Source of the DNA: Trinickia caryophylli
Lineage (GTDB): Bacteria > Pseudomonadota > Gammaproteobacteria > Burkholderiales > Burkholderiaceae
Reading direction: 5' to 3'
Length of the DNA stretch: 64,000 nucleotides
Assembly (NCBI RefSeq): GCF_034424545.1
Contig: NZ_CP139971.1
Coordinates: 682,001-746,000, forward strand
Below, in pieces: positions 58,031-64,000 of this stretch (the first letter of the stretch is position 1; each line of letters opens with the position of its first letter). Below the pieces are notes generated by a model, which did not search any database, was not told the origin of the DNA, and worked only from the letters and a program-made list of their open reading frames with translations. Position numbers and translations under genes: made by a program.

Positions 58031-58723
58031 ATGGAAAATTCTACTGACACGGATGCGTGCTATGCGGAGGCCGCAACGCCCCCCGCGCCGCGTACCTGGG
58101 ACGCACGGCTGGCCCGCTGGCTCGTCACGCCGCTCAAGAACACCCGCGTCGTCCCGAACCACCTGACCACGCTGCGCCTCGCCGTCGGGCTCGCAGGCGC
58201 CTATTGCCTGGCCCAGGGCGGCTTCGCGTGGGCGAACGCCGGTGCCCTTTTCGTCGTGCTGTCCAACTTTATCGATCATACGGACGGCGAACTCGCGCGC
58301 ATCAGCGGCAAGTCCAGCAAGCTCGGCCATTTCTACGACCTCGCGAGCGACGCATTCGTCACCGTTGCGCTCTTCGTGTCGATGGGCATCGGCATAGCCG
58401 CGCGTGGGGAGCAGCAGCTTATGCCGATCGCACTCGGCACGCTCGCCGGCGTCGCCGTGGCCCTCATCTTTTACCTGCGCATGCGCATCGAATCGTTCGC
58501 CGGCAAGGCGGGCACGAAGCAGGCCTATGCCGGGGGCTTCGAAACCGAAGACGTGCTCTATCTGCTGCCGCTCGTCACGCTCGCGGACGGTGTCCAGCCG
58601 TTCGTCCTCGTGGCGGCGATCGGCGCTCCGCTTTTTGCCGCGTGGGTCGTGTTCGACTATTGGCGCATCGTGCGTCGCGGCCGGCCGGGCCAGCAAGGCA
58701 CCGAATTGCGGATGTCCCGATGA
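58031..58723 (+). CDS. CDP-alcohol phosphatidyltransferase-family membrane enzyme
   Basis: 230 residues. The full family motif is present: D82-x2-D85-G86-x2-A89-R90-x8-G99-x3-D103-x3-D107 (start DHTDGELARI, end GHFYDLASD), with helices before and after. Enzymes of this family move a substituted phosphate from a CDP-activated donor onto an alcohol, or the reverse. Start Met 58031 is placed 51 residues before the motif. It overlaps the oxygenase gene by 4 nt and leads an operon with two nucleotidyltransferase domains and phosphonate enzymes. A CMP-phosphonate is therefore its likely donor and a diacylglycerol-like lipid its likely acceptor (inference). Confidence 0.87.
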   Translation: MENSTDTDACYAEAATPPAPRTWDARLARWLVTPLKNTRVVPNHLTTLRLAVGLAGAYCLAQGGFAWANAGALFVVLSNFIDHTDGELARISGKSSKLGHFYDLASDAFVTVALFVSMGIGIAARGEQQLMPIALGTLAGVAVALIFYLRMRIESFAGKAGTKQAYAGGFETEDVLYLLPLVTLADGVQPFVLVAAIGAPLFAAWVVFDYWRIVRRGRPGQQGTELRMSR

Positions 58724-59562
58724 ACTCGCAGGCAATCGGATGGAGCGCGCCCGACTTGCGCGCCAAATCGGATAACGGCGGTGCGGATAACGGCGGTGCG
58801 GATGCCGGCGGTGCGGGACTCGAAAGCAGCTTGGCGGCGCAACTGGGCCAGCTCGACGCGAATCGGCTCGAAAAAGACTTCGCCGAGCAAGGCGCGTTTC
58901 TCTACCTTCAGGATTTCCTCCCTGCCGACGTCACGTCCCGGCTCGCCGAAATCGCGCGGGCACTGCTGCCCGCCGTCAACCGCAACTACCTGCCGGGCCA
59001 TAAGCAGGGCGGCAGCGTAAGCCGGCATACGCTCGATAAGCTCGCGCCGTTCGTGGCCGAGCTCTATCGTTCGCCGGCGCTTACGCGGTGGCTCGAAGCG
59101 ATCACGGGCGACAAGCTGCTGCCGTCTCCCGAGGACGATCCGCACGCGTACGCGCTCTACTACTACACGCGCCCCGGCGATCATATCGGCTGGCATTACG
59201 ACACGTCGTATTACGAGGGCCGCCGCTATACCGTGCTTTTCGGCGTGATCGACGATTCCTCCTGCCGGCTCGACTACGAGTTGCACACACGCACGCCCGG
59301 CCGCGCCCCCGTGCCGGGCTCGGTGCAGTATCCGCCCGGTGCGATCGTGCTGTTCGACGGCGACAAGCTGCGGCATCGGATCACGCCGATGGGCGCCGGC
59401 GAAATGCGCGTGTCGCTGACGCTCGAGTACGTGACCGATGCGCACATGCGACCATGGCGCCGGTTCATCTCGAACATGAAAGACGCCGTTGCCTATTTCG
59501 GCTTTCGCCAGGTGTTCGGCAAGTCGAACGCTCCGGCCGGCGGTGGAGGACACGGCGCATGA
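58720..59562 (+). CDS. Fe(II)/2-oxoglutarate-dependent oxygenase
   Basis: 280 residues. The iron triad is His159-x-Asp161 in IGWHYDTSYY and His219 in KLRHRITPM; Arg230 (GEMRVSLTLEY), 11 residues later, fits the 2-oxoglutarate carboxylate site. The domain is prolyl-4-hydroxylase-like. Residues 18-33 are a Gly/Ala/Asp tandem repeat (DNGGADNGGADAGGAG) encoded by three 15-bp units. It is translationally coupled to both neighbours by 4-nt overlaps. In this operon it may hydroxylate the phosphonate head group or the lipid; the substrate is not determinable from sequence. Confidence 0.85.
   Translation: MNSQAIGWSAPDLRAKSDNGGADNGGADAGGAGLESSLAAQLGQLDANRLEKDFAEQGAFLYLQDFLPADVTSRLAEIARALLPAVNRNYLPGHKQGGSVSRHTLDKLAPFVAELYRSPALTRWLEAITGDKLLPSPEDDPHAYALYYYTRPGDHIGWHYDTSYYEGRRYTVLFGVIDDSSCRLDYELHTRTPGRAPVPGSVQYPPGAIVLFDGDKLRHRITPMGAGEMRVSLTLEYVTDAHMRPWRRFISNMKDAVAYFGFRQVFGKSNAPAGGGGHGA
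58771..58815 (+). repeat. In-frame 15-bp tandem repeat, three copies
   Basis: GATAACGGCGGTGCG at 58771-58785 and 58786-58800 are identical; 58801-58815 has GATGCC in place of GATAAC. Each unit encodes D-N/A-G-G-A in the oxygenase N-terminal linker. The unit length keeps the frame, so copy-number changes would only alter linker length. Confidence 0.8.
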
Positions 59563-60548
59563 CGCGCGCCGCCATGGCTTTGCTGACGCTCGGCACGGTC
59601 GTATTCGTCGCGCTGCTCGCGTGGCAAGGCGTCGGTGCCGTGGCCGGCGCATTGGCCGCCGCCGGCTGGGGGCTCGCGCTCGTCGCGGCATTCCACGTGG
59701 TCCCGCTCGCGATCGACGCCGGGGCCATCCGGGTGCTCGCGCCGCGCAGGACCACGTTCAAGGACACGATGTTCGCCCGCTGGGCCGGCGAATCGGTCAA
59801 CAGCCTGCTGCCCGCCGGCCAGCTCGGCGGGCCCGTGCTGATGGCGCGCCATCTCGCGCAGCGCGGCCTGCCGCTTCCGCGCGCGGCCGCGGCCATTACC
59901 GTGAGCACGACGATGCAAGCGTTCGCGCAGATCGTGTTCGCACTCATCGGGCTTGCGGCCTTCGCGGCGGCGGCCACGAGCACGCATCATGCGACGGCGG
60001 GCGTGCGCACCGCCACGCTCGTCGCGAGCGCGGTTCTTGCCGTGGCGATGATCGCGTTCTACGTTGCGCAGCGGCGCGGTCTTTTTGGTGGCTTCGCCCG
60101 GCTGGCATCGAAGGTATTCGGAAAACCCAATGCCGCACTGGCGGCGCGGGCCGACGCGATCGACGTCCGCGTGCAGGCGCTTTACCGCCGCCAGTGGCGC
60201 GTTGCCGCGACGTTCGCGGTGAGCCTCGTCGGCTGGATCGTCGGAACCGGCGAGGTGTGGCTCGCGCTGCGCTTTCTCGGGCATCCGGTCGGCTGGGCCG
60301 AAGCGCTGCTGCTCGAAAGCGTCGGGCAGGCGATCCGCGGCGCGGCGTTCGCCATCCCCGGCTCGCTCGGCGCACAGGAGGGGGGCTATCTGCTGCTCGG
60401 GCCGCTGGTTGGCCTCGCCCCCGAAACGGCCCTTGCACTCTCGCTTGCCAAGCGGGCTCGCGAACTCGCATTGGGCTTGCCAGGCATCGCTTATCTGCAC
60501 TGGAGCGAGCGGAAGTGGCAGCGCCGGCGGGTAGCCGCCCGGTCGTAG
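59559..60548 (+). CDS. LPG-synthase-TM/HpnL-like membrane protein, putative lipid translocase
   Basis: 329 residues with about eight membrane helices. Family features are RWAGESVNSLLPAGQLGGPV near residue 75, AITVSTTMQAFAQIVFALIG, and LLLESVGQAIRGAAFAIPGS with LGAQEGGYLLLGPLVGL near the end, matching the UPF0104/LPG_synthase_TM group that includes HpnL and MprF flippase domains. The soluble aminoacyl-transferase domain of MprF is absent. It would move or handle a lipid, here plausibly the phosphonolipid. Start overlaps the oxygenase stop by 4 nt. Confidence 0.82.
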   Translation: MTRAAMALLTLGTVVFVALLAWQGVGAVAGALAAAGWGLALVAAFHVVPLAIDAGAIRVLAPRRTTFKDTMFARWAGESVNSLLPAGQLGGPVLMARHLAQRGLPLPRAAAAITVSTTMQAFAQIVFALIGLAAFAAAATSTHHATAGVRTATLVASAVLAVAMIAFYVAQRRGLFGGFARLASKVFGKPNAALAARADAIDVRVQALYRRQWRVAATFAVSLVGWIVGTGEVWLALRFLGHPVGWAEALLLESVGQAIRGAAFAIPGSLGAQEGGYLLLGPLVGLAPETALALSLAKRARELALGLPGIAYLHWSERKWQRRRVAARS

Positions 60549-60622
60549 CCACGGGCGGCACCCGGCCGAAGATCATTCAGCAATATCAGCAAGTTCAGCA
60601 AGTCTAGGAAGGAGAACGACAG

Positions 60623-61387
60623 ATGCGAGCGATCATCCTCGCGGCCGGGCTCGGTCTGCGCCTGCAGTTGCCACCCGAGCAACAATATCCGAAATGCCTG
60701 CTGCGCTTCGAGGGCACAACGCTGCTCGAGCGCCATCTGCGCGCGCTGCGCGCCGCGGGCGTGGACGACATCGTCCTCGCGCTCGGCTTCGAGCCGCGGC
60801 AGGTCGAGGCCGAACTCGAACGCCTCGCCTGGCAGCCGCTGCCCGAGATGATCCACAACCCGCGCTACGACCTCGGCAGCGTGCTGACGGTGCATACGGT
60901 CGCCGATGCGATGACGCGCGGCGGCGACGTCCTGCTGATGGATGCAGACGTTCTCTACGACGAAGCGATTCTGCGTGCGCTCGTGGCCGGCGCGAGCGCG
61001 GACCGGCTGCTGATCGACCGCGATTTCGAAGCAGGCGACGAGCCCGTGAAGCTGTGCGTGAGAAACGGCGTACCCGTGGAGTTGCGCAAACAGCTCGCGG
61101 TCGGGCTCGACTACGACACGATCGGCGAATCGGTCGGCTTTTTCCGCTTTCGCGAGCAAACCGCGCGCCGTCTGGCGCAGATCGTTGCGCGCTATGTCGA
61201 CGAAGGGCGCTCGAACATGCCGCACGAAGAAGCCGTGCGAGATCTGCTGCTCGAAAGCGGGCACACGTTCGATATCGCAGATGTGACAGGCATGCCCTGG
61301 ATCGAAATCGACTTTCCCAATGACGTGAAGCGCGCAGCCGACGAAGTGCTGCCGCGCCTCGCACCGGTAACAGGGGTTACACGATGA
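60623..61387 (+). CDS. LicC/PntC-like cytidylyltransferase
   Basis: 254 residues of the sugar-nucleotidyltransferase fold. The NTP loop is [11 protein letters not shown] with Lys24 in [10 protein letters not shown]; Asp107 and Asp109 in [10 protein letters not shown] are the metal site; [17 protein letters not shown] and [15 protein letters not shown] match phosphocholine or aminoethylphosphonate cytidylyltransferases. AAGGAG precedes the ATG. It lies inside a phosphonate operon, so CTP:2-aminoethylphosphonate activation is the favoured reaction; phosphocholine remains possible. It overlaps the PEP mutase gene by 4 nt. Confidence 0.85.
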
Positions 61388-63081
61388 ACGCACGCGAACC
61401 GATTCCATTTACCGACGCAAGCTCGCGCTTTACGCGGCTGCGGGACATGCTCGTCGGCAACGAGCTCGAATTCATCATGGAAGCTCATAACGGCTTGTCG
61501 GCGCGCATCGTGCGTGAGGCGGGCTTCAAGGGCATCTGGGCTTCGGGCCTCGCCATTTCGGCGCAATTCGGCGTACGCGACAATAACGAAGCAAGCTGGA
61601 CGCAAGTTGTCGATACGCTCGAATTCATGGCCGATGCGAGCGACCTGCCGATCCTGCTCGACGGCGACACCGGCTACGGCAACTTCAACAACGTCCGTCG
61701 GCTCGTGCGCAAGCTCGAGCAGCGCGGCATCGCGGGCGTGTGCATCGAAGACAAGCAGTTTCCCAAGACGAACAGCTTCATCGGCTCCGAGCGCCAACCG
61801 CTCGCCGACATCGACGAATTCTGCGGCAAGATCAAAGCCGGCAAGGATTCGCAGACCGAAGAAGATTTCTCGATCGTCGCACGCGTGGAAGCCTTGATTG
61901 CAGGATGGGGCATGGAGGAGGCGCTCAAGCGCGCCGAAGCCTATCGCGTCGCCGGCGCCGATGCGATCCTGATCCACAGCAAGCTCTCGCGCCCCGACGA
62001 AATTCTTACGTTCGCGCGCGAATGGGCCGGCCGCGCGCCGCTCGTCATCGTGCCGACGAAGTACTACAGCACGCCGACCGAAGTCTTCCGGCAGGCCGGC
62101 ATCAGCCTCGTGATCTGGGCAAATCACCTGATTCGCGCGGCAGCGTCGTCGATGCAGCTCGTTGCCCGCGAAATCCATGCGAGCGAGACGCTCGTGAACG
62201 TCGAAGAGCGCATCGCGAGCGTCGACGAGATCTTCCGCCTGCAAGACGCCGAGGAGTATTCGGCGGCCGAGCGGATCTATCTGTCGGCAAGCCGCCAGGC
62301 GTCGTCCGCGGTCGTCCTGGCCGCGAGCCGCGGGCGCGGCCTCGAGGCCGTGACCGAGGACAAGCCGAAGGTCATGCTGCCCGTCGCGGGCAAGCCGCTG
62401 CTGCGCTGGCTCGTCGATGCCTTCAAGCAGCAAGGGGTCAACGACATCACGGTCGTCGGCGGCTATCGCGCCGATGCGATCGATCGGGCCGGCATCAAGC
62501 TCGTGTTGAACGAGCAGCATGCGCACACGGGCGAACTCGCGTCGCTCGCCTGCGCGATCGACGGCATCTCGGGCGACGCCGTGATTTCGTATGGCGACCT
62601 GCTTTTTCGCCATTACATCCTGCGCGATCTCGTCGAGAACGATGCGTCGTTCACCGTCGTCGTCGATTCGTCGATCTCGCAGCCTTCGAACCAGAGCGTG
62701 CGCGATTTCGCCTATTGCTCCGCGCCGGACGATCGCGCGCTCTTCGGCCGCAAGACCTACTTGCAGCGCATCCGCAGCGGCGCGCCCGGCGATCAGCCTG
62801 CCAATGGCCGGTGGGTCGGCCTGCTCGGCGTTCGAGGCAACGGCGCCGAGCGCCTGAAGTCGATGCTCGCGGAGCTGAGGCTGCAGCCCGATTTCGATAC
62901 GCTCGACATGCCGGCGCTCATCAATGCGCTGATCGATGCCGGCGAGCGCATCGAGGTGCAGTACGTGCATGGCCATTGGTGCGGCGTGAACGATCTGGAG
63001 GACTTCCGCCGGGCCGGCGACTTCGCTCATGCGCAAACGCCGCTCGGCGCCGCGCCCCAGGGCAGCGGAGCCGAGCGATGA
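61384..63081 (+). CDS. aepX: Phosphoenolpyruvate mutase fused to a nucleotidyltransferase domain
   Basis: 565 residues. Residues 1-300 are PEP mutase: the signature [12 protein letters not shown] is complete. Asp66, Asp93, Asp95, Glu122, Lys128, Asn130 and Arg167 match the mussel enzyme's catalytic residues with a constant offset of 8. It forms the C-P bond (PEP to phosphonopyruvate). Residues about 308-555 are a nucleotidyltransferase-like domain whose loop reads [20 protein letters not shown]. Here the usual Gly of AAGxGxRL is Ser and the usual Arg is Gly, so its activity is uncertain. It overlaps both neighbours by 4 nt. Confidence 0.95.
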
Positions 63082-64000
63082 TCGAAGCGGCACAGTTCGT
63101 CGAGGCGGCACGCCGTCATGGCTTCCAATGGTATGCCGGCGTGCCCTGCTCGTTTCTCACGCCGTTCATCAACTATGTGCTGCAGGATCCGGCGCTGCAC
63201 TACGTGAGCGCCGCCAACGAAGGCGACGCGGTGGCGTTCGCCGCCGGCGTGGCGCTCGGCGCGCGCAACGGCCTGCGCGCCGTGACGATGATGCAGAACT
63301 CCGGACTCGGCAATGCCGTGAGCCCTTTGACGTCGCTCACCTGGACGTTCCGGCTGCCGCAGTTGCTCATCGTGACGTGGCGCGGCGAGCCGGGCGTGTC
63401 CGACGAGCCGCAGCATGCGCTGATGGGGCCGATCACGCCGACGCTGCTCGAAACCATGGACGTTCCGTGGGAGCCCTTCCCGCGCGAAGCCGAAGCGATC
63501 GAGCCCGTACTCGCACGTGCCGTTGCGCACATGGACGCGACGGGCCGCCCCTACGCGCTCGTCATGCAAAAAGGCAGCGTGGCCCCGTATCCGCTCAATG
63601 CCGCAGCAGCCACGCCGCGCCGGCTTTGCACGCCGGAAGCCCGTTGGCTCGGCACGACCGGCGAGGCATTGCCCACGCGCCAGGATGCCCTGCGGCGCGC
63701 GATCGAGCTCACGCCGGCGGCCTCCACGGTCGTGCTCGCATCGACGGGCTTTTGCGGCCGGGAGCTCTACGCGCTCGACGATCGCGCAAACCAGCTCTAC
63801 ATGGTGGGCTCGATGGGCTGCGTGACGCCGCTCGCGCTCGGCCTCTCGCTCGCGCGGCCCGACCTGCGCGTGATAGCACTCGATGGCGACGGCGCGGCGC
63901 TGATGCGCATGGGGGCTTTCGCGACGCTCGGCACGTACGGACGCGGCAACCTGCGCCACCTGCTGCTCGACAACGGCTCGCACGATTCGACCGGCGGCCA
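63078..64000 (+). CDS. aepY: Phosphonopyruvate decarboxylase, truncated by the window edge
   Basis: The first 307 codons are visible and remain open at the right edge. N-terminal [20 protein letters not shown] and [20 protein letters not shown] are the Ppd pyrimidine-domain blocks, with the catalytic Glu in [22 protein letters not shown] is also diagnostic. The ThDP/Mg site starts at [16 protein letters not shown] and ends near [12 protein letters not shown]. It decarboxylates phosphonopyruvate to phosphonoacetaldehyde, pulling the unfavourable mutase reaction. Start by ATGA overlap with aepX. An AEP transaminase would be expected just beyond. Confidence 0.95.

Follow-up and report, generated by a model that had tools for sequence, protein, structure and literature searches.

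The window analysed here is a 64,000-nucleotide stretch of Trinickia caryophylli (G000:C2:682001–746000, from a two-contig genome of 6.59 Mb whose sequence relatives are Burkholderiaceae), and at its right end lies an operon that, we propose at a probability of roughly 0.5, makes a phosphonate head group and places it on a hopanoid. The operon encodes a cytidine diphosphate (CDP)-alcohol phosphatidyltransferase (APT), an Fe(II)/2-oxoglutarate oxygenase of the HalD/BesD fold (OXY), an HpnL-family membrane protein, a free nucleotidyltransferase (NTP1), a phosphoenolpyruvate (PEP) mutase fused to a second nucleotidyltransferase domain (PepM), phosphonopyruvate decarboxylase (Ppd) and a 2-aminoethylphosphonate (AEP) transaminase. 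A first-pass annotation of the window had read the first six of these genes as making, modifying and translocating a phosphonate-headed membrane lipid, which is well supported as a scheme but is not new and left the lipid unnamed. The phosphonolipid reading of the operon is plausible and already in print in outline: the available text of PMC5987646 (2018) draws a cluster of a lichen Nostoc, together with its Burkholderia homologue, and assigns it to phosphonolipid synthesis, with the same complement of CDP-APT, OG-Fe(II) oxidase, NTPT, pepM, ppd, AEPT and hpnL and the same proposed outcome. What is new is the connection with hopanoids, to which relatives of the operon outside the window point through gene neighbourhood in several lineages and through co-occurrence, and which suggests the nature of the lipid. 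Our direct observations concern gene identities, gene order, conservation, the fusion of APT to OXY and genomic linkage to hopanoid genes; from this linkage, and from it only, we infer a hopanoid as the acceptor.

Linkage was assessed in a GTDB-based collection scanned with an oxygenase profile, from which the best 80 of 357 relatives were analysed (a selection of named loci in stretches of up to 20.7 kb, not a census). Titles among these 80 include Nostoc and other cyanobacteria, Nitrospinota or Nitrospina, Nitrospirae, one Verrucomicrobiota metagenome-assembled genome (MAG), many Gammaproteobacteria and Burkholderiaceae. PepM is present in the stretch in 54 of the 80 loci, and at least one hopanoid gene, called by set bit scores, accompanies it in 41 of the 54, a raw proportion uncorrected for chance proximity. 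By group, the association holds for 7/8 cyanobacterial, 15/20 Burkholderiaceae and 19/26 other loci; five of the seven cyanobacterial loci count through an HpnP-like gene only, and the total without that gene is 36/54.

In 11 named loci APT stands between HpnN and HpnA, the three being consecutive and on the same strand; because of this interleaving with hpnN and hpnA, we consider a bacteriohopanepolyol the most likely acceptor. Salinisphaera sp. Q1T1-3 (L115) carries on one strand the series SHC–HpnG–HpnN–APT–HpnA–OXY–HpnL–NTP1–PepM–Ppd–PhnW (transaminase)–HpnH–HpnB, in which SHC is squalene-hopene cyclase, with one short predicted frame on the opposite strand between HpnA and OXY; S. hydrothermalis (L114) has the same gene order, with SHC, HpnN, HpnA and HpnH over their cut-offs. 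Three Nostoc loci (L089, L095 and L098) place HpnJ–HpnK–HpnI immediately before APT–OXY, the names having been checked over cut-off in L089. A radical-SAM gene lies upstream of APT in 10 of the 12 APT-bearing cyanobacterial loci; we take it to be HpnP-like, and in Nostoc it combines B12-binding, radical SAM and DUF4070 domains, with no NCBIfam match at E 1e-40. Curated models were checked in a sample of loci for HpnA, HpnH, HpnN, SHC and the Nostoc HpnI, HpnJ and HpnK, whereas the labels HpnB, HpnC, HpnG and HpnM come from sequence reading and tblastn. The HpnP-like, HpnJ, HpnK and HpnI genes beside APT in the Nostoc loci set the present picture apart from that of PMC5987646, whose main text, as available, has no occurrence of “squalene” or of any word beginning with “hopan”.

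Some of these loci show variant arrangements. In L107 and L108 the cluster has a pair of APT paralogues, one flanked by HpnN and HpnA and the other, 38–40% identical to the APT of the window, adjoining the oxygenase. Nostoc loci L095, L099, L100 and L102 have APT and the oxygenase with no PepM in the stretch, and three of the four adjoin HpnP-like or HpnI genes. A Nitrospinia MAG (L111:9989–12041) has overlapping OXY, NTP1 and APT genes, again with no PepM in the stretch, and HpnH about 7 kb upstream. Finally, L104 and L109, titled Klebsiella pneumoniae MAG, contain the phosphonate operon with HpnA or Dxs–HpnH-like neighbours; their titles look wrong for the contigs.

Within Burkholderiaceae, dxs and/or hpnN follow the operon in five of 15 other family loci (L044, L045, L048, L050 and L053) and in L085, together representing four genera (g7, g8, g11 and g17), and a hopanoid cluster with SHC lies further downstream in the three loci covered beyond that point (L082, L083 and L085). 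Outside the family, OXY relatives occur in 6 of 368 other genomes of the class. Four of these six have phosphonate genes beside OXY, and three of the four loci (L075, L076 and L077) are embedded among hopanoid genes. Matches above cut-off comprise HpnH, HpnA and HpnN for L075 and HpnA for L076; in L077, APT is flanked by HpnN and HpnA and shares 4 bases with each. The genome of the window itself has SHC and HpnH (567 bits) and, judged by these two sequences, can probably make extended hopanoids.

Co-occurrence with the cyclase extends this association to whole genomes. Of 299 family genomes, 175 carry the PepM fusion, 178 APT and 178 OXY; with G189 excluded from the first group because its match is to a paralogue (42%), the remaining 174 PepM genomes include 174 with APT and 173 with OXY. 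SHC is present in 214 of the 299 genomes, in 174/174 PepM genomes and in 178/178 APT genomes. In the class-level draw, which is more varied, SHC occurs in 54 of 369 genomes and in all four operon carriers besides the genome of the window, an outcome with a chance of about 4 in 10,000 at the background rate of 53/368, read with the qualification that two of the four carriers come from one family. G366 and G561, which have only an oxygenase paralogue, are not among the 54.

A number of observations weigh against a hopanoid acceptor. The cyclase tracks genome size and descent, so the 174 PepM genomes are not independent and descent and lifestyle explain part of the 174/174; moreover, PepM is missing from 40 SHC-bearing family genomes, and 85 have neither gene. 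Thirteen of the 54 named loci with PepM lack a hopanoid gene, some of them being cut by a contig edge. In the family, six of the ten genera compared (g1, that of the window, with g3, g10, g12, g18 and g21) show no hopanoid gene in the stretch compared, and the Trinickia operon lies 723 kb from SHC. Four genomes (G065, G172, G218 with locus L087, and G241) keep APT and OXY without PepM or any Ppd over cut-off; import of AEP, a different donor or ongoing loss of the pathway may explain this. In L075 and L077 the HpnL-like neighbour lies on the opposite strand and scores below the HpnL cut-off (149 and 142 versus 196 bits), and HpnN of L075, L077 and L114 passes TIGR03480 and fails the stricter NF052374. 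The oxygenase stands alone, without other operon genes at the thresholds used, in seven named loci, and none of the seven has a hopanoid gene; the oxygenase family thus probably has further uses. The APT sequence gives no sign of a triterpenoid site, and its solved relatives use diacylglycerol or CDP-diacylglycerol, among others. Finally, among the papers listed, literature searches found neither a phosphorus-bearing hopanoid nor a link between hopanoids and phosphonates, a result that covers few subscription papers and is not proof of absence.

Several of these points feed a rival explanation that we regard as unlikely, while giving it real weight: APT would move AEP to diacylglycerol to yield a phosphono analogue of phosphatidylethanolamine, which is then hydroxylated, and the linkage to hopanoid genes would reflect co-packaging of membrane-lipid genes. 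APT resembles CDP-alcohol phosphotransferases that include the choline/ethanolamine phosphotransferases using diacylglycerol, and the separation of the operon from hopanoid genes in six of ten genera, that of the window included, fits such a product. A glycerophosphonolipid also agrees with the wording of the first-pass annotation and with the Nostoc paper (PMC5987646), a published phosphonolipid prediction whose available text lists hpnL and whose abbreviation list holds HAEP and DAG, the latter standing for diacylglycerol. Set against this are the absence of any glycerolipid gene noticed in the operon or the loci compared, which were inspected without a systematic scan for such genes, the hopanoid genes near PepM in 41 of 54 named loci and the position of APT between hpnN and hpnA in 11. 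On balance the hopanoid acceptor remains our preferred reading, and the organisation and content of the operon are described below with this in mind.

The operon occupies the last 6 kb of the window and continues beyond it (Table 1). The first-pass annotation had claimed six tightly coupled phosphonate and lipid genes at 58031–64000, and this is confirmed by family matches over curated cut-offs and by the junctions, four of the five being overlaps of 4 bases and the remaining one, HpnL–NTP1, a 74-base gap. Two points go beyond that annotation: the presence of a second nucleotidyltransferase domain, fused to PepM, and the assignment of its flippase-like protein to HpnL. An AEP transaminase, which that annotation suggested looking for to the right of position 64000, was indeed found there as the seventh gene, its start overlapping the Ppd stop codon at 64250.

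Table 1. Genes of the Trinickia caryophylli phosphonate operon, of which six lie at 58031–64250 on the + strand and the seventh lies just right of the window end; bit scores are given with family cut-offs in brackets.
Feature	Position	Strand	Length or domains	Family match
APT (CDP-alcohol phosphatidyltransferase)	58031–58723	+	230 aa	PF01066 50 bits (22)
OXY (HalD/BesD-fold Fe(II)/2-oxoglutarate oxygenase)	58720–59562	+	280 aa	PF23169 (HalD) 48 bits (26)
HpnL-family membrane protein (LPG synthase TM region)	59559–60548	+	329 aa	TIGR03476 331 bits (195.65); PF03706 91 bits
NTP1 (stand-alone MobA/LicC-type nucleotidyltransferase)	60623–61387	+	254 aa	NTP_transf_3, over cut-off
PepM–nucleotidyltransferase fusion	61384–63081	+	PEP mutase residues ~15–300, second nucleotidyltransferase domain from ~305	TIGR02320 400 bits (320)
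Ppd (phosphonopyruvate decarboxylase)	63078–64250 (window end cuts gene at 64000)	+	390 aa	TIGR03297 439 bits (312.5)
AEP transaminase (2-aminoethylphosphonate aminotransferase)	64250–65320 (L006:8250–9320; outside window)			TIGR03301 415 bits (360.8)

This arrangement is widely kept in the family. The operon occurs in 11 of 25 genera, with the listed orthologues 69–87% identical, and in 11 of the 15 other Burkholderiaceae loci compared all seven genes recur in unchanged order, which is more than chance. Of the remainder, L047 has the first six genes and no transaminase match, and three loci of genus g21 (L052, L054 and L056) show the PepM end only. In g21 the APT end can sit elsewhere in the genome (for example in G095 and G085), and because these genomes carry both parts at separate sites, the PepM and APT halves are co-retained though parted on the chromosome. 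In G214 and G271 (genus g10, 3.8–3.9 Mb) the PepM matches are in pieces, which may reflect decay or assembly error.

Such conservation bears on the possibility that the product is instead a soluble phosphonate, secreted as a natural product. PepM and Ppd begin many pathways to soluble phosphonate natural products, and the oxygenase resembles enzymes that act on free amino acids. An operon spread over 11 of 25 genera, with orthologues of 69–87% identity and the same order in most loci, would nevertheless be unlike the sporadic distribution of antibiotic clusters; it also includes a membrane transferase and HpnL, and family library scans matched none of its seven proteins to a peptide-ligase or efflux family. 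A soluble product is hence the least probable of the explanations considered and hardly to be expected, and a soluble antibiotic was rejected as a candidate, the operon being widely conserved, ordered and equipped with a membrane transferase.

Turning to the formation of the head group, the PepM translation contains the motif EDKxxxxxNS, which defines PEP mutase in the available text of PMC6697681, and its mutase part matches PEP mutase 1m1b at E 1e-125. Ppd and the AEP transaminase are both above curated cut-offs within the one operon, their genes overlapping. PEP mutase, Ppd and the transaminase would together produce AEP, a step that, like its activation with cytidine monophosphate (CMP), is assigned from family knowledge.

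Two nucleotidyltransferase domains are candidates for the activation step, one free (NTP1) and one fused to PepM, with similar NTP_transf_3 scores (56 and 55 bits, cut-off 27). The best solved relative of NTP1 is 6pd1, the PntC of T. denticola (positions 2–248, E 1.9e-15, the best of 8 PDB matches), followed by LicC 1jyk. The signature LAAGxGxR is kept in 67 of 68 NTP1 relatives, the exception being a truncated match, whereas it is found in 0 of the 54 PepM-fused domains scanned; LAASRG occurs in 38 of these 54, and the fused domain is kept nonetheless. Because the signature is kept in the free enzyme and was not seen in the fused domains, we assign CMP activation to NTP1, as a proposed PntC-like AEP cytidylyltransferase, and make no such claim for the fused domain.

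A close characterised counterpart is the Pnt pathway, as presented in the available text of PMC6697681. There, too, AEP is formed through Ppm, Ppd and AEPT, a separate enzyme activates it with cytidine triphosphate, and a PepM-fused nucleotidyltransferase is found with a separate one nearby; the three clusters shown each hold both domains, the enzymes characterised (Ari1348 and Tde1415) are, as we read it, not mutase-fused, and T. denticola PntC is a proven AEP cytidylyltransferase. Pnt clusters differ in adjoining LicD-like or glycosyltransferase genes, where the Trinickia operon has a CDP-alcohol phosphatidyltransferase, an oxygenase and HpnL; the main text of PMC6697681, as available, contains no occurrence of Burkholderia, flippase, dioxygenase or phosphatidyltransferase, and describes cell-surface phosphonate biosynthesis beyond CMP activation as largely unknown as of 2019.

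The setting of these Pnt enzymes raises the alternative that CMP-AEP serves to modify a glycan, whether lipopolysaccharide, capsule or some other, a role suggested for LicD-type clusters in oral anaerobes. In favour of a phosphonoglycan, the clusters in which PntC-type activation was characterised, according to the available text of PMC6697681, include LicD-like transferases or glycosyltransferases. The first-pass annotation had pointed to a lack of glycan-transfer genes, and in this it was correct: family library scans matched none of the seven operon proteins to a glycosyltransferase or LicD-like family. The transferase present is instead a CDP-alcohol phosphatidyltransferase, integral to the membrane, with HpnL as the probable export gene. 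We consider a phosphonoglycan improbable; a polysaccharide-linked phosphonate was rejected as a candidate on the absence of LicD or glycosyltransferase families.

We return to a lipid, with a hopanoid as the favoured acceptor, and to the two enzymes that would attach and modify its head group. In APT, the motif D-x2-DG-x2-AR-x8-G-x3-D-x3-D, which we take to be the CDP-alcohol phosphotransferase motif, is invariant in 20/20 aligned sequences. Its AlphaFold model has a predicted local distance difference test (pLDDT) score of 84.5, with the CDP-alcohol phosphotransferase AF2299 as the top fold match (Foldseek 4o6n, E 2.9e-6). APT, an integral-membrane enzyme, is proposed to take the phosphonate group of the CMP ester and attach it to the hydroxyl of a lipid.

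The oxygenase model (pLDDT 88.6) has HalD 7u6h as its top fold match, and H-x-D and a distal H are invariant in 20/20 aligned sequences. OXY shares the fold and iron-site layout of the HalD/BesD halogenases and hydroxylases at 15–21% identity, with an aspartate where HalD has glycine, and it does not belong to the BesD equivalog (28 of 450 bits). A role as a halogenase was rejected, since the iron-binding H-x-D is kept in all 20 sequences where HalD/BesD halogenases have H-x-G; for the same reason OXY is expected to hydroxylate rather than halogenate. APT and OXY form one reading frame in 16/16 named Pandoraea loci and also in L044, L048 and L053, and therefore the two probably work together. 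By analogy and from its modelled fold, OXY would most likely hydroxylate the head group, giving 1-hydroxy-AEP. Hydroxylation of an acyl chain is a less likely alternative, given that the fold relatives of OXY have amino acids as substrates and that in Pandoraea OXY is fused to a head-group transferase. The same head group, 1-hydroxy-AEP, is carried by the sphingophosphonolipid of Bdellovibrio stolpii, where the acceptor is a sphingolipid (cited in the available text of PMC8154272). No AEP lipid of Burkholderia was apparent from the titles of the papers listed in a literature search.

A distant oxygenase paralogue (HalD, 33 bits) in genome G366 (L079:5200–8914) adjoins a DUF3419 gene and a calcineurin-type phosphoesterase, with a methyltransferase-like and a glycosyltransferase-like gene, both named by eye, among its neighbours. 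We take the DUF3419 gene to encode a BtaA-type betaine-lipid enzyme; this paralogue is possibly a head-group hydroxylase for another lipid.

The HpnL-type protein, by analogy with its family, probably flips the finished lipid across the inner membrane. The only other HpnL match in the genome is on contig C1 (L010, G000:C1:3632001–3650000), after genes read as hpnI, hpnJ and hpnK, the first two labels coming from sequence reading and tblastn and the third from a YdjC protein match in Pfam. This set of hpnI, hpnJ and hpnK is the one associated with the cyclitol-ether head group: according to the available text of PMC12583986, the hpnI–hpnK–hpnJ pathway to bacteriohopanetetrol cyclitol ether likewise adds a polar, amine-bearing head to bacteriohopanetetrol, but one that is sugar-based and without phosphorus. 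The same 2025 text describes the functions of hpnA, hpnB and hpnL as not established, and our scheme, if true, would supply a role for hpnL.

Together, these proteins may form a pathway in which PEP mutase, Ppd and the transaminase would provide AEP and free NTP1 would convert it to CMP-AEP. APT would then move AEP onto an extended (C35) hopanoid, for instance bacteriohopanetetrol, at one of its hydroxyls, with release of CMP. OXY, working with APT, would hydroxylate the head group, most likely to 1-hydroxy-AEP, and the HpnL-type protein would carry the finished lipid across the inner membrane. The broader proposition that many Burkholderiaceae, several Gammaproteobacteria and Nostoc make AEP or 1-hydroxy-AEP esters of bacteriohopanepolyols, with HpnL flipping such large-headed hopanoids, is tentative, and we place it slightly below an even chance.

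Hopanoids are a source of geological biomarkers. A phosphonate-headed form, if true, would join cell-surface phosphonates with hopanoids, two fields without a link in the literature searched, and would represent an overlooked hopanoid class in a large bacterial family; soil and lichen phosphonate could then be locked in a very stable lipid.

Downstream of the AEP transaminase lie genes for a threonine aldolase and then an arylamine N-acetyltransferase. This pair accompanies the operon in one of the 15 related loci (L042, of the same genus) and in the named locus L153, and it was left out of the operon because it is linked in so few loci. L153, from Paraburkholderia sp. NMBU_R16, is the nearest named locus seen, with the seven genes, the same threonine aldolase and N-acetyltransferase, and a PepM that is 87% identical.

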